Assembly: GCA_947626365.1 (NCBI GenBank) | Contig: CANQRW010000036.1 | Span: 1-33,709, forward strand | Direction: 5' to 3' | Length of the DNA: 33,709 bases | Source of the DNA: an uncultured Lachnospiraceae bacterium | GTDB lineage: Bacteria > Bacillota > Clostridia > Lachnospirales > Lachnospiraceae | Shown: positions 1,669 through 8,110 of the stretch, in pieces | How the letters are laid out: every line of letters starts with the position of its first letter | Numbering within the stretch: position 1 is the first letter of the stretch | Program-made: the position numbers and the translations under genes | Notes under the pieces: model-generated | The model's input: only the letters and a program-made list of their open reading frames with translations | What the model was told of the DNA's origin: nothing | Database searches by the model: none

Positions 1669-1712
1669 AAAGAACGGTAATTGCGCAAATGAAGTTTGAG
1701 GGGAGATATACC

Positions 1713-3083
1713 ATGGATGCGAATAATGCATATGAGCAGGAGATTGATTTAAAGGATTTGCTTTTTGCTGTTTTATATAAATGGCGTATGATTCTGGTGA
1801 TCGCGGTACTTTTTGCGGCGCTTCTGGGCGGCTATCGTCTGTTGAGCACATATCGTTCCCAGACCAGCCCGGCGGCCCTGGCGGAGGCGCAGAAGTCCTA
1901 CCAGAAAGAACTGGACGTCTATAACAACAGCAAGGAGATAGCGGAGCGGGATATTGATAAACTGACAGAGGACATCAATGTGCAGATGGAATATCTGGAC
2001 AATTCCATCCTTATGAATATAAGTCCGTACAGTGTGTGGGAGGCGAAGACCGCGTTTTTCGTTAAGACGGATTACAAGATTATGCCTGACATGATGTATC
2101 AGGACATCGATTATACGGATACGATTCTGCAGTCCTACGCTCTGGCTCTGTCCAGCACGGGATTTCTGAAGACCATTGCGGATGATGTGGATATCGAGCT
2201 GCGGTATCTGAGCGAGCTGATTACGATTACTTCGGATAATAAGCTGCTGACGCTGCAGGTTCATCACAATGATGAGGAGACGGTCAAAGCGATTATGAGT
2301 GATCTGGTCGATGGCGTCAAGAAGCTGGAGGGACAGCTGGGAGAAAGTATCGGGCCTCATGAGCTCAATGAAGTGAGCAGCAGCGTGGGCACGGTGGTGG
2401 ATCTTAATCTGGCGGCTTCTCAGGAGGCACAGCAGACTCATATGAATACGCTGAATGACAGTCTGGAGCAGAAGCAGGAAGAGCTGGATGCCCTGACAGA
2501 GCCGAAAAAGTCAGGCAGCCCCATGGTTTCATCTGTGAAAAACGGCATTAAGTACGGCGTTCTGGGCGGTGTTCTGGGCGCTTTCATGGTAGTGTTCTTT
2601 GTCTGCGTAGCATTTTTGATGAGCGATAAGCTGTATTCCGCGAAGCAGCTGAAATCTTACTGCAATGTGAAGATTCTGGGGGCCCTTCCCCTTCAGAACA
2701 GAAGCAAATTTGTGATTGACCGGTGGCTGAGCCGGCTGGAGGGCCGTGCGGCCTCCGGCATGGATGCTGATGAGTATGATCTGATTGCCGCCAATATTTT
2801 GAATTATGCGGAGGGTGCGAAGAATCTGATGGTTACCGGTACCGCGGAGGAGAGCGTGATTGCGGCGGCGGCCGAGCAGCTGAAGGCGCGGCTTTCCGGA
2901 ATCCAGATGGTCTGCGCAGGCAGCGTGCTGCAGAATTCGGAAGCGCTGCGGAAACTTCCGGAATGTGACGGCGTGATTCTGGTGGAACAGTGCAAGCATT
3001 CCGCATATGGAGAGATTAAGGCGGAGGTAGAGAAAGCGTCGGATTTGAAGAAGCCAGTGATTGGCTGTGTGGTATTTGAATAA
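1713..3083 (+). CDS. Wzz/YveK-like polysaccharide chain-length protein with a degenerate kinase-like C-terminus
   Basis: This is a 456-residue membrane protein. A first transmembrane segment (about residues 25-46) follows the cytoplasmic start, then a long extracytoplasmic region with coiled-coil character (about 50-265), then a second Gly-rich transmembrane segment (about 272-300). This is the polysaccharide co-polymerase layout that sets glycan chain length. The last 150 residues (LKSYCNVKILGALP onward) look like the Rossmann-type BY-kinase domain normally encoded by the partner gene. The Walker A position reads LMVTGTAEESVIAAA, without the GKS/T, and the end reads CDGVILVEQ...VIGCVVFE. It is therefore probably a non-catalytic pseudokinase module; this is inference. 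The ATG at 1713 is chosen over 1689 because AGGGGAGA lies 6-7 bases before it. Confidence 0.75.
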   Translation: MDANNAYEQEIDLKDLLFAVLYKWRMILVIAVLFAALLGGYRLLSTYRSQTSPAALAEAQKSYQKELDVYNNSKEIAERDIDKLTEDINVQMEYLDNSILMNISPYSVWEAKTAFFVKTDYKIMPDMMYQDIDYTDTILQSYALALSSTGFLKTIADDVDIELRYLSELITITSDNKLLTLQVHHNDEETVKAIMSDLVDGVKKLEGQLGESIGPHELNEVSSSVGTVVDLNLAASQEAQQTHMNTLNDSLEQKQEELDALTEPKKSGSPMVSSVKNGIKYGVLGGVLGAFMVVFFVCVAFLMSDKLYSAKQLKSYCNVKILGALPLQNRSKFVIDRWLSRLEGRAASGMDADEYDLIAANILNYAEGAKNLMVTGTAEESVIAAAAEQLKARLSGIQMVCAGSVLQNSEALRKLPECDGVILVEQCKHSAYGEIKAEVEKASDLKKPVIGCVVFE

Positions 3084-3090
3084 GATGGGT

Positions 3091-3123
3091 GGCCGGGATC
3101 CTGCGGGGTTCCGGCCTTTTTTG
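3091..3123 (+). terminator. Intrinsic terminator after the Wzz-like gene
   Basis: GGCCGG (3091-3096) pairs with CCGGCC (3111-3116), extended by A-T and G-T pairs and followed by TTTTTTG. It separates the Wzz-like gene from the ATPase cassette. Confidence 0.85.
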
Positions 3124-3189
3124 TCTGTGCAAAGGGAAATTTGGGCCAGACTTAAGTGTGGTCTCTGAAAATTTTGCGATGCAAAGAAG

Positions 3190-3218
3190 TTGTATTTTGT
3201 GTATTGCCATGATATGAT
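3190..3218 (+). promoter_or_regulatory. Sigma-A-type promoter of the ATPase cassette
   Basis: TTGTAT (3190-3195), 17 bp, then TATGAT (3213-3218). Transcription would begin near 3225, giving a leader of about 55 nt to the ATG at 3281 but only about 14 nt to the alternative ATG at 3239. Confidence 0.65.
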
Positions 3219-3280
3219 ATTTTCAGGTAAATTGGAATATGCTGCGAGGATATTGCGGCGAAGAGTTCGGAGAATGTGTG

Positions 3281-4543
3281 ATGAGACTGTCATTGGAAAA
3301 TGTTGGTAAAATTGATACGGCAGCAATTGAAATTGATGGAATTACAGTGATTGCTGGTGAGAATAATACTGGAAAAAGCACAGTTGGCCGTGCTCTTTTT
3401 GTAGTGTTCAATGGTTTTTATGACATTGAGGAGAAGATTAAAGCGGAACGTGTCAGAAGTGTGAGAGAGTTGCTGAACAGCGTTTATTATATGCGCGGGT
3501 CTTCTTATTTTGCAGAAACAGATCTTGGAAAGACAGCCGGGGAGATTGTCGATGACATAAATGTTTATAAGGGGAATTCGGATGCTGTTCAAAGAAAACT
3601 GATGAGTCTGACGGATAAACCGACTCCTAAGTCATTTGATAAAATTTGTGAAGGCATATCTGCGAGAATATCAGAGATATTATCTATTTCTGATACAGAT
3701 TTATTTGAAACGATTTTGATGAGAAGCATGAATAATGAGTTCAGTGGACAAGTAGGCAACGTGTTTCGGGAGGGTGAGAGCAAAATCTCACTTGAGATTG
3801 CAAACCAGTGTCTTGAGCTGATGATTATGAATAATGAAACGGTAAAGATAAAAAGGCCGGATGATATGAGTCTTCAGATGGAAACCGTTTATATTGACGA
3901 CCCGTTTGTGATGGATGAAGCAAGACGTATTTATAGTTTGCGGGAGGTGCCTTATCTGGATCATCGAAGCCATCTGAGAAATAAACTTTCGCATGTACGC
4001 AGGGATATAGGGATTATTGATGAGATTGTCGTGGATAAGAAACTTCGATTGATTAATGAGAAATTGTCGTCAGTCTGCAGCGGCGATATAATTTCAAACA
4101 AACGGGCGGGATTGGTGTACAAAGTCCCGAACAGCGATAAGGAACTGGAAGTAGGCAATCTTTCAACAGGCCTAAAAACATTTGCCATTTTAAAGGTTTT
4201 ATTGCAGAATGGGACCATAAGGCCGAATGGAACGATTATTTTAGATGAGCCGGAGATTCATCTGCATCCAGAGTGGCAGCTGCTGTTTGCGGAACTCATT
4301 GTACTGCTTCATAAGGAATTTAAATTGCATATCCTTTTGAACACGCATAGCCCTTATTTTTTGCGTGCGGTTCAGGTTTACTCGGCAAGATATGAGGTGG
4401 CAGACAAATGTAAGTATTACTTATCTGATGTAAAAAATGGGTGTGTGATATTTACAGACGTAACGGATGAGATTGATAAAATATATGTAAAACTTTCACG
4501 GCCATTGCAGAGATTGGAGAATGAGAGGTGGGAAGATGATTGA
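3281..4543 (+). CDS. AAA/OLD-like ATPase of a two-gene cassette
   Basis: This is a 420-residue ABC-type ATPase. It starts MRLSLENVGKI, typical of AAA_15/AAA_21 proteins. Walker A is GENNTGKST (residues 26-34), an ABC-signature-like LSTGLK lies near 290, Walker B is IILDEPEIHLHPEW near 317-330, and THSPYFLRA (H-loop) near 355. The middle part (about 60-280) is charged, helical and unrecognised. No TOPRIM or HNH domain is visible after the ATPase core, so any nuclease activity would have to come from the partner. The stop overlaps the next ATG by 8 bp. The ATG at 3281 is preferred because homologous proteins begin at this point and GGAG precedes it. Base composition is much more AT-rich than the flanks, which suggests transfer. 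Relatives include ATPases of OLD, Septu and PARIS systems; I cannot place it in one of them. Confidence 0.85.
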   Translation: MRLSLENVGKIDTAAIEIDGITVIAGENNTGKSTVGRALFVVFNGFYDIEEKIKAERVRSVRELLNSVYYMRGSSYFAETDLGKTAGEIVDDINVYKGNSDAVQRKLMSLTDKPTPKSFDKICEGISARISEILSISDTDLFETILMRSMNNEFSGQVGNVFREGESKISLEIANQCLELMIMNNETVKIKRPDDMSLQMETVYIDDPFVMDEARRIYSLREVPYLDHRSHLRNKLSHVRRDIGIIDEIVVDKKLRLINEKLSSVCSGDIISNKRAGLVYKVPNSDKELEVGNLSTGLKTFAILKVLLQNGTIRPNGTIILDEPEIHLHPEWQLLFAELIVLLHKEFKLHILLNTHSPYFLRAVQVYSARYEVADKCKYYLSDVKNGCVIFTDVTDEIDKIYVKLSRPLQRLENERWEDD

Positions 4544-5129
4544 TATTACATTGTATCCCATTTTTATGAACCATATGTCTGATTTGAAGTCAGTGTCTGT
4601 GGATAAACATGACAGTGATGATGCGGAGTATATGACGCAGTCATTGAAAGAAGTAGTTGATTTTGATGCGGTTAAGAATGAATATGTGAAAACGTTGGGC
4701 TTAAGTGAGATTCCATCGTCAAATGACGCCCTTTTCCATGGGGAAGAGGATACATTAGTGTTTGCTGAATTTAAGAATGGAAGAATTAATAAGAGGAAGA
4801 AATATTCCCTTCAAAAGAAAATATACGATAGCGTTATGATTTTTGGCGATATCACATCTGTTGGAATATCGCGCATGCGGAAAGATATAGATTATATTTT
4901 AGTATATAATGAAAAAGCAAATGTAGATGCAGAGCCGTCTGAAAATCTTCAAAGGTCTGTACAGGATTCCCCCGCATTGGATAGTATAGCGAAAACGATT
5001 GGAAATTTGGCGAAAGAAGAGCATGTTAAATTCGGGTTGGAAATGTTCCAAAATTATTGTTTTCGGAGAGTGCATACATATACGGAACAGGAATTTGAGA
5101 AATATTTACAAAAATCTGAATATAAGTAA
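4536..5129 (+). CDS. Unrecognised partner protein with an E-x-K nuclease-like motif
   Basis: This is a 197-residue soluble protein with no signal peptide or membrane segment. Its clearest feature is EDTLVFAEFKNGRINKRKK (residues 71-89): an acidic residue (D72), a hydrophobic strand, then E78-F-K80. This is the arrangement of the PD-(D/E)xK nuclease core, where the acidic residues and the Lys bind metal and act on the phosphate. A second strand-helix unit (IYDSVMIFGDI, then DIDYILVYNE, about 97-126) follows, as in that fold. It overlaps the ATPase gene by 8 bp and has GAGGTGGG just before its ATG, so the two are translationally coupled. The same AT-rich composition runs through both. No family name is claimed. 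Nuclease function is inference from one motif and context. Confidence 0.7.
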   Translation: MIDITLYPIFMNHMSDLKSVSVDKHDSDDAEYMTQSLKEVVDFDAVKNEYVKTLGLSEIPSSNDALFHGEEDTLVFAEFKNGRINKRKKYSLQKKIYDSVMIFGDITSVGISRMRKDIDYILVYNEKANVDAEPSENLQRSVQDSPALDSIAKTIGNLAKEEHVKFGLEMFQNYCFRRVHTYTEQEFEKYLQKSEYK

Positions 5130-5156
5130 AAGAATAGTGTTTGGGAGGTTCTCCTT

Positions 5157-5807
5157 ATGTATACACGTCCTTTTTATCTGCAGGATTCCTGCGCTTTGGC
5201 AGAGCAGCTTCTGGGGAAGCTGCTGGTCCATCGGGCGAAAGAAGGTCTGACAGCCGGAATGATCGTGGAGGCGGAAGCTTACGCGGGACCGGAGGACAAA
5301 GGGGCCCATTCCTACGGCGGACGGCGCAGCGAGCGGACGGAGGTTATGTTCGGGGAAGGCGGACACGCCTATGTCTATCTGATTTATGGAATGTATCACT
5401 GTTTTAATGTGGTGGCTGGTCCGGTGGGGAAGCCAGAGGCGGTGCTGATCCGGGCGCTGGAGCCTGTGGACGGAGTTGAGTTGATGCTGCGGCGGCAGGA
5501 GGAGAGAAGGAAAAAACTATCCGAAAGCCGGACGGATACGCTTTGCAGCGGTCCCGGCAAACTGTGCGTGTCCATGGGCATTACAAAGGCGGACTACGGC
5601 CGGGACCTGTGCGGAGACGTCTTATATATTGAAGATTACAAGACCATTGACCGCTCCCGGATATATGTGTCGCCGCGAATTAATATTGATTACGCGGAGG
5701 AGTACCGGGATGTGCTCTGGAGGTACTACATTAAGGATAATCCCAGTGTGTCAAAAGTGCCGAAACGGTACCGAGGGCTGCCGCTTCGCGGCGGAAGAGG
5801 CAGTTAA
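5157..5807 (+). CDS. DNA-3-methyladenine glycosylase (AAG/MPG family)
   Basis: This 216-residue enzyme removes alkylated purines (3-methyladenine, hypoxanthine) from DNA to start base-excision repair in the cytoplasm. Family hallmarks are LLGKLLVH, the catalytic-region motif IVEAEAYAGPEDKGAHSY (about residues 37-54, with the catalytic Glu), AYVYLIYGMYHCFNVV (about 75-90) and the CSGPGKLC region. The length is typical. The ATG at 5157 has GGGAGGT 8 bases upstream. It begins 27 bp after the AT-rich cassette with no terminator between, so it may be read from the cassette promoter, but its GC-rich codon use shows it belongs to the core genome. Confidence 0.93.
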   Translation: MYTRPFYLQDSCALAEQLLGKLLVHRAKEGLTAGMIVEAEAYAGPEDKGAHSYGGRRSERTEVMFGEGGHAYVYLIYGMYHCFNVVAGPVGKPEAVLIRALEPVDGVELMLRRQEERRKKLSESRTDTLCSGPGKLCVSMGITKADYGRDLCGDVLYIEDYKTIDRSRIYVSPRINIDYAEEYRDVLWRYYIKDNPSVSKVPKRYRGLPLRGGRGS

Positions 5808-5813
5808 AAGAAG

Positions 5814-5868
5814 CGGCGGAAAGGCCGGCCAGGAGCTGAAACGGCGGAAAGGCCGGCCAGGAGCTGAA
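5814..5868. repeat. Two tandem copies of a 28-bp GC-rich repeat
   Basis: A 27-base block beginning CGGCGGAAAGGCC occurs at 5814-5840 and again, identical, at 5842-5868, with the start of a third copy at 5870. It fills the gap between two convergent genes. GGCCGGCC inside each copy is palindromic. Confidence 0.85.
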
Positions 5869-5896
5869 GCGGCGGGAGAATAGCCCTCTGCCGGCC

Positions 5897-6256
5897 TCAG
5901 CTCAGGACGCCTCCGATGATTCCGCTGCCGGCGCAGAAAGCCATGGCGACAGCCAGTTCCTGGGTGGTGGCGGACAGTCCCTTGTTCAGGAGAAATGAGA
6001 CGGCCAGAAGAATGGCGAAGTACAAAAGCCCGGCCGTCAGCCCGCAGAAGAAGCGGCTTTTCTTAAGCCCTCTTCCGGCCAGAAAACCAGCCAGGGCGCA
6101 AGACAGGATATAGATCAGGTCTACAGCCATCTGTACCTGGCCTTCCTGGAGGTGAAAACGGTACAGGGCGAAGGAGACAGCGGCCAGCAGCAGGCCGGAT
6201 AATAAATAGGAGAAGAGCAGGGAGCGCAGGAAAACTCCCGGTGCGGAACGTTCCAT
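5897..6256 (-). CDS. TIGR04086-like four-helix membrane protein
   Basis: This is a 119-residue, very hydrophobic protein with four predicted membrane helices (about residues 10-30, 39-58, 66-86 and 96-118). Size and pattern (FLRSLLFSYLLSGLLLA at the start, AGSGIIGGVLS at the end) fit the TIGR04086 family of Clostridia, which I recall near SCIFF and yajC/sec genes; the function is unknown. The ATG at 6256 is chosen over the longer frame (to 6334) because AAGGAG lies 5 bases before it and the shorter form matches the family length. It is divergent from scfA. A role in SCIFF export or sec function is only a suggestion from context. Confidence 0.7.
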   Translation of the reverse strand: MERSAPGVFLRSLLFSYLLSGLLLAAVSFALYRFHLQEGQVQMAVDLIYILSCALAGFLAGRGLKKSRFFCGLTAGLLYFAILLAVSFLLNKGLSATTQELAVAMAFCAGSGIIGGVLS

Positions 6257-6328
6257 AAGAACTCCTTGATTTGCCTTGTTTGGTCTAATATATTCAAAAG
6301 AAAACATGGTTAGTACAAGAAAAACAAG

Positions 6329-6357
6329 TTGCAACCTGGGAATAGTTATGTTATCAT
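6329..6357 (+). promoter_or_regulatory. Sigma-A-type promoter of scfA
   Basis: TTGCAA (6329-6334), 17 bp, then TATCAT (6352-6357). The start would be near 6364, leaving a short leader with AGGAGGGGAG before the ATG at 6382. Confidence 0.65.
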
Positions 6358-6381
6358 ATAACGCGAGGAGGGGAGAATACC

Positions 6382-6528
6382 ATGAAGAAAGTAAAAACTT
6401 TAACCAACAGTACCCTGAAAGAATCTATGAAGAAGGGCGGCTGCGGCGAGTGCCAGACTTCCTGCCAGTCCGCATGCAAGACGTCCTGCACCGTTGGCAA
6501 TCAGAGCTGTGAGAACGCCAGCCGCTAA
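6382..6528 (+). CDS. scfA: SCIFF ribosomal peptide precursor (six cysteines in forty-five residues)
   Basis: This is a 48-residue peptide beginning MKKVKTLTNSTLKESMKK, with Cys at residues 21, 24, 28, 32, 36 and 43 (CGEC, TSC, SAC, TSC, QSC). The leader, size and Cys spacing match SCIFF, the almost universal Clostridia RiPP precursor whose maturase makes a Cys-to-Thr thioether bridge. T37, directly after C36, and T34 and T26 are the Thr residues in the Cys-rich part. An AGGAGGGGAG site lies upstream. It is followed by an attenuator hairpin and then by the maturase gene. The mature peptide's job in the cell is not established. Confidence 0.95.
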   Translation: MKKVKTLTNSTLKESMKKGGCGECQTSCQSACKTSCTVGNQSCENASR

Positions 6529-6570
6529 TCGCCAGTCAGTATCAGCCGAACATACACGAAAACGAGAGGA

Positions 6571-6604
6571 ACCCCCTACGGTCCTTGGATTGTAGGGGTG
6601 TTTT
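6571..6604 (+). terminator. Attenuator-like hairpin between scfA and scfB
   Basis: CCCCTAC (6573-6579) pairs with GTAGGGG (6592-6598), followed by TGTTTT. A partial terminator here would give more precursor than enzyme. A second 8-bp hairpin (CGGAATCC 6663-6670 with GGATTCCG 6679-6686) lies shortly before the scfB ribosome site. Confidence 0.7.
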
Positions 6605-6712
6605 GCTTGTGCTTCGGTATAATCGGAGCCTGAGCAAAACACAGTTAGCGCGCGTTGGAGCGCGGAATCCTGGGGGAAGGATTCCGATTCTTGCGCATCA
6701 AGGGGAGATTTT

Positions 6713-8110
6713 GTGATTCATCAATATAAGAATAATGGATATGATATCGTTATGGATGTCAACAGCGGCGCTGTCCATGTGGTGGATGACGTGGTGTATG
6801 ATGCCATTGCGCTTCTGAAGGAGGACATGCCCGAGACGGATAAGCCCGCAGGGATTCCTGAGGAACTGGAGAAGCGGGTACGGAATCAGTTGGCCGACGA
6901 ATACGGCTATGGCAGCCAGGACATAGAGGACGCCATGTCGGATATTCAGGAGCTGATCGGCCGGGAGGAGCTGTTTACCAGAGACGTATATCAGAACTAT
7001 GTCATAGATTTCAAGAAGAGGAAGACTGTGGTGAAAGCCCTGTGTCTTCACATTGCCCACGACTGTAATCTGGCCTGCCGGTATTGTTTCGCGGAGGAAG
7101 GCGAGTATCATGGCAGGCGGGCTCTCATGAGTTTTGAGGTGGGCAAAAAGGCCCTGGATTTCCTCATCGCCAATTCGGGAAGCCGCCGTCATCTGGAGGT
7201 GGATTTCTTCGGCGGCGAGCCGCTGATGAACTGGGAGGTCGTAAAACAGCTGGTGGAGTATGGCCGGTCCCAGGAGGAAGCTCACGACAAGAAATTCCGT
7301 TTTACGCTGACCACTAACGGCGTGCTGCTCAATGACGAGATCATGGAGTTCTGCAACCGGGAGATGAGCAACGTGGTGCTGAGCCTGGACGGGCGCAGGG
7401 AGATTAACGATAAGATGCGTCCATTCCGTAAGGGAGCGGGAAGCTACGACCTGATCGTTCCCAAGTTTCAGAAGTTTGCGGAGAGCCGGGGGCAGATGAA
7501 TTACTACGTCCGCGGAACCTTTACCAGGAATAATCTGGATTTCGCCAGCGATGTGCTGCATTTCGCGGATCTGGGATTCAAGCAGATGTCCATCGAGCCT
7601 GTAGTGGCTTCTCCGGAAGAACCCTATGCCATTCAGCCGGAGGATATTCCCCAGATTCTTCGTGAGTATGACCGGCTTGCGGTGGAGTATATTAAGAGGA
7701 AGAAAGAGGGAAGAGGTTTCAATTTCTTCCATTTCATGATCGATCTGAATCAGGGCCCCTGCGTGGCCAAACGCCTTGCCGGCTGCGGTTCCGGCACTGA
7801 GTATCTGGCTGTGACGCCCTGGGGAGATTTGTACCCCTGCCATCAATTTGTGGGGCAGGAAGAGTTCCTGCTGGGCAACGTAGATGAAGGGATCACCAAC
7901 ACGGAGCTGCGGGATCAGTTCAAGCTGGTGAATGTCTACGCCAAGGAGAAATGCAGGGACTGTTTCGCAAGATTTTACTGCAGCGGCGGATGCGCTGCCA
8001 ACGCGTTTCATTATGACGGTTCTATCACAGGCGCTTACGATATCGGATGCGAGATGCAGAAGAAGCGTATCGAATGTTCCATCATGATAAAGGCGGCGCT
8101 GGCAGAATAG
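6713..8110 (+). CDS. scfB: SCIFF radical-SAM maturase
   Basis: This 465-residue enzyme installs the thioether cross-link in ScfA. Residues 1-95 form a RiPP recognition region that binds the leader. The radical-SAM cluster motif is CNLACRYC (C118, C122, C125), followed by FFGGEPLMNW near 164 for SAM binding. The C-terminal SPASM domain carries auxiliary Fe-S ligands: CGSGTEY and LYPCHQF (about 357-378), CRDCFARFYCSGGC (about 413-427), then two Cys near the end (IGCEMQKKRIEC). Length is typical. It uses a GTG start at 6713 with AAGGGGAGA before it. The weak start, together with the upstream attenuator, suggests low expression relative to scfA. It heads the scfB-secDF-tgt-yajC order common in Clostridia. 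Confidence 0.95.
   Translation: MIHQYKNNGYDIVMDVNSGAVHVVDDVVYDAIALLKEDMPETDKPAGIPEELEKRVRNQLADEYGYGSQDIEDAMSDIQELIGREELFTRDVYQNYVIDFKKRKTVVKALCLHIAHDCNLACRYCFAEEGEYHGRRALMSFEVGKKALDFLIANSGSRRHLEVDFFGGEPLMNWEVVKQLVEYGRSQEEAHDKKFRFTLTTNGVLLNDEIMEFCNREMSNVVLSLDGRREINDKMRPFRKGAGSYDLIVPKFQKFAESRGQMNYYVRGTFTRNNLDFASDVLHFADLGFKQMSIEPVVASPEEPYAIQPEDIPQILREYDRLAVEYIKRKKEGRGFNFFHFMIDLNQGPCVAKRLAGCGSGTEYLAVTPWGDLYPCHQFVGQEEFLLGNVDEGITNTELRDQFKLVNVYAKEKCRDCFARFYCSGGCAANAFHYDGSITGAYDIGCEMQKKRIECSIMIKAALAE

Follow-up and report, generated by a model that had tools for sequence, protein, structure and literature searches.

What is the pair of overlapping open reading frames (ORFs), P1 and P2, that lies in a 33,709-nt stretch of DNA from an uncultured Lachnospiraceae bacterium (GenBank assembly GCA_947626365.1, contig CANQRW010000036.1, positions 1 to 33,709 of the forward strand; hereafter, the window), and does it represent a new kind of phage defence, as an initial annotation made from the letters alone had proposed? 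We found that the pair is conserved beyond chance, with P2 having a nearly constant ATPase partner, that it is patchy and inserted at this site, and that some of its relatives are carried in phage or mobilisable elements. We consider it likely that P1-P2 is a horizontally moving two-gene anti-phage system, in which an OLD-ABC ATPase (P1) gates a PD-(D/E)xK nuclease (P2) that stops the infected cell. The pair most likely belongs to a kind already in print, that of the OLD-ABC ATPase plus PD-(D/E)xK system WonAB, and not to a new kind.

P2 relatives are found beside a P1-type ATPase

Both ORFs, and the 8-bp overlap of the ATPase with the 197-residue protein, are as first annotated (Table 1). P1 most likely begins at position 3281, a start common to its relatives, and the alternative longer ORF from 3239 is less likely. 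A P1-type gene was located upstream of each of the 12 P2 relatives in set A1, with the contig end cutting the ATPase in L005. P2 searches found 35 places besides its own, of which 30 were examined (G007, G022, G609:C220, G720, and G774 fall outside the count), and the two genes were adjacent in 28 of these 30 loci, taken with wide flanks. Among the loci counted as paired, L086 and L088 have a short P2 frame; the two exceptions are L078, where the ATPase is fragmentary, and L085, where a P2 fragment lacks an ATPase. At L029/L085, the P2 relative is 5′-truncated, lacks the ATPase, and stands beside a possible inserted element. The set A4 omits L078, L085, the redundant L090, L092, and L093, and the viral L095–L097.

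A search with an ATPase profile, built from P2-linked ATPases, gave 303 loci, and among the best 80 of these a P2-type frame lay downstream, on the same strand and no more than 700 bases from the ATPase end, in 75, although several of these frames are fragments or are cut by a contig end. The five misses comprise two loci that end within 170 bases (L133 and L180) and three without a partner (L121, L122, and L193). The P2-fetched and P1-fetched sets have seven loci in common, and the 80 include two pairs with shared sequence. Co-occurrence of the two genes, which the initial annotation had left to be checked, was thus seen from either side. Furthermore, the pairwise distances of P1 and P2 correlate across 65 pairs (Spearman 0.54, with 0/999 permutations as high), a value to which the species' shared history contributes.

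P2 was detected in 17/397 genomes (~4%) of the family sample at E ≤ 0.01; two of these 17 were dropped as spurious-looking, namely L016 and L017, where weak matching pieces lie in frames of 751 and 634 aa. The P2 profile matched 14/392 genomes in the order sample and 9/398 in the phylum sample (the three samples overlap, and the own genome is in each). The best 80 of the 303 ATPase loci include some from Lachnospiraceae, other Bacillota, Spirochaetales, Fibrobacter, Helicobacter, Desulfovibrio, and Leptotrichia, as well as from Collinsella, Planctomycetaceae, Mucispirillum, and methanogen-type archaea. Single-sequence P2 scans of genome-contig and viral-contig collections returned no relative, and the plasmid collection gave no match at E ≤ 1.

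P2 is predicted to be a PD-(D/E)xK-like nuclease

The predicted model of P2 (pLDDT 90) resembles nucleases of the restriction-endonuclease fold. Several type II restriction enzymes rank among its best fold matches, and its fold neighbours also include repair nucleases; the match scores are middling, and the triad and topology agree with PD-(D/E)xK. Conservation was read from two overlapping sets: A3, which consists of P2 and 27 relatives (L018 was omitted, as were fragments such as L014, L030, L032, L034, L035, L042, and L043), and a second set with 70 aligned sequences. From the D...E-x-K motif that had been assigned to the small protein, E78-x-K80 (within EFKNG at P2 78–82) was retained, while D72, its proposed aspartate, was rejected as a catalytic residue, being kept in 10/71 sequences vs. 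D64 in 70/70 aligned. With a PD-(D/E)xK-like fold predicted and this triad invariant in A3, the small protein appears to possess the nuclease core that the initial annotation had marked for checking, and, as judged from the model, P2 is very probably the effector nuclease of the pair.

Known families offered little help in placing P2. Matches were unconvincing in Pfam (best 0.1) and PHROGs (best 0.099) and none was found in NCBIfam; against PADLOC, the best were only HEC-01B (5.2e-4) and REase_II (0.0083), with no effector profile fitting well. A P2 profile searched against the sequences of solved structures gave nothing meaningful (best 0.17). No TOPRIM, HNH, PtuB, or AriB family appeared among the matches of P2 in Pfam, NCBIfam, PADLOC, or PHROGs, in line with the initial statement that TOPRIM and HNH effectors are lacking here. 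HEC-01B was rejected as a relative: a motif of this sort could not be seen by eye in its proteins L046 and L047, whose scores against the P2 profile are no higher than those of unrelated ORFs.

P1 is an OLD/AAA_21-type ABC ATPase

P1 matches AAA_21 (1.2e-20) and AAA_15 (2e-17) in Pfam and, over almost its full length, the phage protein family phrog_14430 (1.3e-36); its nearest PADLOC profiles are PD-T4-4_A (2.5e-23), AriA, and HEC-02A. The ATPase motifs read initially, GENNTGKST, ILDEPEIHLHPEW, and THSP, are all present. Walker A, signature, Walker B, and H-loop are kept across A6, a set of 23 ATPase sequences from which truncated, split, or redundant ATPases and L018 were omitted (Table 1). 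We take residues 293–299 to be the ABC signature and H356 to be the H-loop histidine. One relative, L091, has NTCS in its H-loop region in place of the NTHS of P1.

Table 1. Features of the P1-P2 locus in window coordinates
Feature	Position	Strand	Basis
Segment missing at this site in six congeners (ATPase, nuclease, glycosylase)	3087..5891	.	blastn of flanks, L059–L064
Intrinsic terminator of the Wzz-like gene upstream; left boundary of the unit	3091..3116	+	11-pair stem, 8 G-C, T run
P1, OLD/AAA_21-type ABC ATPase, 420 aa	3281..4543	+	Pfam, PADLOC, PHROGs matches
Walker A GENNTGKST, P1 26–34	3356..3382	+	G26, N28, G31, K32 invariant in A6 (n = 23)
ABC-signature-like NLSTGLK, P1 293–299	4157..4177	+	G297, K299 invariant in A6 (n = 23)
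Walker B ILDEPE, P1 320–325	4238..4255	+	D322, E323, P324, E325 invariant in A6 (n = 23)
Presumed H-loop histidine H356	4346..4348	+	At least 90% of A6 (n = 23)
P2, predicted PD-(D/E)xK-like nuclease, 197 aa, shares 8 bp with P1	4536..5129	+	ORF, alignment, predicted model
Putative catalytic Asp D64 (in SNDALF)	4725..4727	+	28/28 of A3 (P2 included); 70/70 aligned in second set
Putative catalytic E78-F-K80	4767..4775	+	A3: both 28/28; second set: E 70/70, K 69/70
3-methyladenine DNA glycosylase (Mpg)-like gene, within the missing segment	5157..5807	+	GC 0.559; named by reading

The pair is inserted at this site and carried by mobile elements elsewhere

The stretch 1689–8110 was matched by blastn in 21/21 genomes of the genus sample, the own genome included. 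In 6/20 other congeners the site is empty, the flanks standing together with 18 to 321 bp between flank matches; the follow-up covered these six (L059–L064). The absent segment also includes an Mpg-like gene, which occurs in only the own genome among the 21 and is probably outside the ATPase-nuclease system. This gene is not AT-rich, so it may have a separate history, perhaps having entered this site independently. No direct repeat of at least 8 bp is shared by 3084–3290 and either 5126–5160 or 5805–5900.

As had been noted from the sequence, the pair is poorer in GC than its neighbours: P1 has a GC content of 0.397 and P2 of 0.350, vs. a mean of 0.531 (standard deviation 0.039) over 27 other window genes, delimited by hand, with GC z-scores at third codon positions of −3.7 and −4.4, respectively. 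One other AT-rich gene exists, at 164–1096 (GC 0.364). It precedes a Wzz-like gene and encodes an acyltransferase-like membrane protein; the two are probably the end of a surface-polysaccharide locus. Since the upstream gene has a good terminator (Table 1), separate transcription of the pair is plausible. The promoter initially claimed for the pair did not emerge: a scan of 3050–5900 gave 6 sigma-70-like sites vs. a shuffle mean of 6.0, i.e., no excess over chance.

Relatives in mobile settings were recognised by reading their ORFs. In L097, the pair is positioned just ahead of terminase, portal, and capsid genes, and in L096 it is flanked by repressor/ImmA-like genes and a serine recombinase gene. 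In L018 (MT835532.1, labelled bacteriophage), it follows ParB-like and relaxase-like genes, so L018 is perhaps not a phage but a mobilisable element.

The architecture matches that of systems already in print

In WonAB, from the Vibrio cholerae WASA-1 prophage, the genes of an OLD-ABC ATPase and of a predicted PD-(D/E)xK nuclease form a two-gene operon; the system aborts phage infection and stops translation, and protection is lost when either active site is altered (PMC12137116). P1-P2 resembles it in both the two-gene arrangement and prophage carriage, and the 33-residue spacing of E300 and H333 in WonA equals that of E323 and H356 in P1, the assignment of these WonA residues to Walker B and H-loop being ours. 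The differences are that WonB has a mass of 16.1 kDa, while P2 has 197 aa, and that WonAB homologues are reported mainly from Gram-negative bacteria (PMC12137116). The WonAB authors relate their system closely to an operon termed "OLD-ABC ATPase + Novel REase", present in 0.96% of genomes, and also put it near PD-T4-4 (PMC12137116); a later review repeats the link to this operon (PMC12409358). OLD-ABC ATPases with PD-(D/E)xK enzymes are also found around BREX (PMC12839542), and PD-T4-4 is listed under ATPase and PD-(D/E)xK domains (PMC10952713).

The Novel REase operon, known to us from papers that cite the survey of Krishnan et al., shares the architecture of P1-P2. Its modelled example comes from Anaerovibrio lipolyticus, and the P1-P2 family occurs in an Acidaminococcaceae genome (L150). 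These two organisms we take to belong to the same class. P2 was likened to WonB and the Novel REase by architecture and descriptions. The accessions given are AWB73976.1 for WonB, SHI83462.1 for the Novel REase, and RCO57988.1 for PD-T4-4_B (PMC12137116). PD-T4-4 of E. coli likewise combines an ATPase with a PD-(D/E)xK nuclease; its profile PD-T4-4_A was matched by 14/14 ATPases of set A2 at 1e-15, while PD-T4-4_B matched 0/13 A1 members at E ≤ 0.1 and 0/8 P2 relatives (one of the eight also in A1). PDLC04034 had no match in the own genome, a search that by itself shows little because 14 control genomes gave none either. The PADLOC candidate HEC-02 also pairs an ATPase with a small protein encoded directly after it, in which a D...ExK-like motif can be made out by eye (L044 and L045), and HEC-02A was matched by 14/14 P1 relatives (A2); the HEC candidates are explained in PMC12988326. 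No HEC-02B model matches P2 itself, and a few P2 relatives give weak matches: one model matches 3/13 A1 members, and the best match of any is 7.6e-6. The hhalign probability for HEC-02B is 68% (E = 4.7e-5 as a single pair).

Septu (PtuAB) and PARIS (AriAB) have ATPases related to P1. Their effectors are HNH or TOPRIM proteins (PtuB and AriB, respectively), unlike P2 with its PD-(D/E)xK-like fold; Septu, PARIS, and OLD proper were therefore rejected as the identity of the pair. The TOPRIM effector is also stated in PMC12839542. As for a named system, then, the pair agrees with known ones in architecture and ATPase profile but not in the effector profiles PD-T4-4_B, PtuB, and AriB. The effector role first proposed for the E-x-K protein thus holds, while "undescribed" is too strong a word for the module, given that the experimentally demonstrated WonAB, PD-T4-4, and the Novel REase operon share its architecture. 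Since no PADLOC effector profile fits P2 well, it may be a member or subfamily of WonAB-kind effectors not described before. We recognised no paper on exactly the P1-P2 family in the literature searched, which excludes bioRxiv and most subscription journals. A bolder version, which we hold to be possible but doubtful, is that P2 represents an effector family of its own, apart from WonB, PD-T4-4_B, and HEC-02B; P1-P2 would then be a separate abortive-infection system in which an ATPase gates a PD-(D/E)xK nuclease, commonest, in the samples taken, among anaerobes and present in several phyla and archaea, with a substrate (e.g., tRNA or rRNA) unusual for the fold.

Neighbouring genes and rival explanations

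The neighbours of the pair are mostly ordinary: 121 Pfam families were found in 89 neighbours, and nearly all of the 25 listed are housekeeping or metabolic. Four species of one genus (L090–L093) carry a short ATPase (318–322 aa) and a P2 relative at one site, between a purH-like gene and ylxM-ffh-rpsP-rimM-trmD (gene names by reading), and such a fixed housekeeping site argues against mobility.

Support from defence islands, which the initial annotation had suggested surveying, is weak at best. Among the PADLOC matches listed, the 89 neighbours (from 25 loci) gave six names, namely RmrA, PD-Lambda-1, type I specificity with mad5, PDC-S03, and IetA. In comparison, 89 of 124 proteins from elsewhere in the same genomes gave eight names, one of them strong: PDC-S72 (3.4e-93), PDC-S04, mad3, LmuA, RTasMBL, pVip, Avs1a, and PDC-M48B. 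A further 129 neighbours, some from loci already in the 25-locus set, gave mad3, mad2, SIR2/pAgo-related, PDC-S65, type IIG, AriAB, DrmMI, HEC-02B, RdrB, and capP among the matches listed. Set A7 omits three HsdS-like proteins on purpose, as well as proteins shorter than 80 aa or with N. Several strong defence names (PD-Lambda-1, a type I specificity subunit, a type IIG enzyme, AriAB, DrmMI, and HEC-02B) do occur near the pair among the matches listed, but the controls yield eight names too, and since the names are known only among those matches, enrichment is not demonstrated.

HsdS-like genes lie no more than two genes upstream in 5/111 loci (104 distinct) vs. 0.16 to 0.26 expected from their density in 96 genomes of the order, a test picked after the cluster was noticed. 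One of the five was identified by profile and four by BLAST clustering, and two are from Oscillibacter. In L065 and L123, an HsdS-like gene is followed by a small ImmA/IrrE-like metallopeptidase gene (by reading) and then by the ATPase. This cluster, like the type II restriction enzymes among the top fold matches of P2, would fit a restriction-like mode of action, with direct cleavage of incoming phage DNA and survival of the host. We judge this unlikely: by reading, no methylase or specificity gene stands beside the pair in the window, and WonB toxicity leaves genomic DNA intact and stops translation (PMC12137116).

Still less probable, in our view, is a toxin-antitoxin-like addiction pair, with P2 as the nuclease toxin and P1 as its neutraliser, serving the upkeep of a mobile element and not phage defence. 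The gene overlap, the small nuclease, the insertion, and the mobile carriage all suit such a pair, but P1 is large and keeps its ATPase motifs, and in the architecturally equal WonAB, overproduced WonB is toxic only when WonA is present, from which its authors exclude simple sequestration (PMC12137116). We assign a similarly small chance to a housekeeping role in DNA repair, chromosome, or cell-cycle work without defence. The short form at the purH-like/ylxM-ffh-rpsP site in L090–L093 and the repair nucleases among the fold neighbours of P2 speak for it, as does an archaeal OLD-family ATPase reported in cell-cycle progression (PMC12796447). A gene pair seen in only ~4% of family genomes (even counting the two spurious-looking matches), missing from the site in six congeners, carried in phage genomes, and spread over phyla and archaea is not what a housekeeping role would lead one to expect.

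A possible mode of action

By analogy with WonAB, the best mechanism for an anti-phage P1-P2 is most likely ATPase-gated abortive infection. P1 would dimerise in the manner of ABC proteins and serve as both sensor and gate, keeping P2 inactive in a complex until an infection cue, through ATP binding or hydrolysis by P1, switches it on. Active P2 would then cut nucleic acid at a D64/E78/K80 metal site, stopping the infected cell so that the phage would not mature. The WonAB analogy also suggests that the substrate may be tRNA or rRNA instead of genomic DNA.

On this reading, ATPase-gated nuclease defence, a class demonstrated recently, would be extended to Lachnospiraceae and other anaerobes, with P2 as an effector family that escaped the profiles used from PADLOC, Pfam, NCBIfam, and PHROGs and with its putative active site corrected to D64, E78, and K80. 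P1-P2 would thereby provide a Gram-positive counterpart in which to study the cues that OLD-ABC sensors respond to and the targets of their small nucleases.
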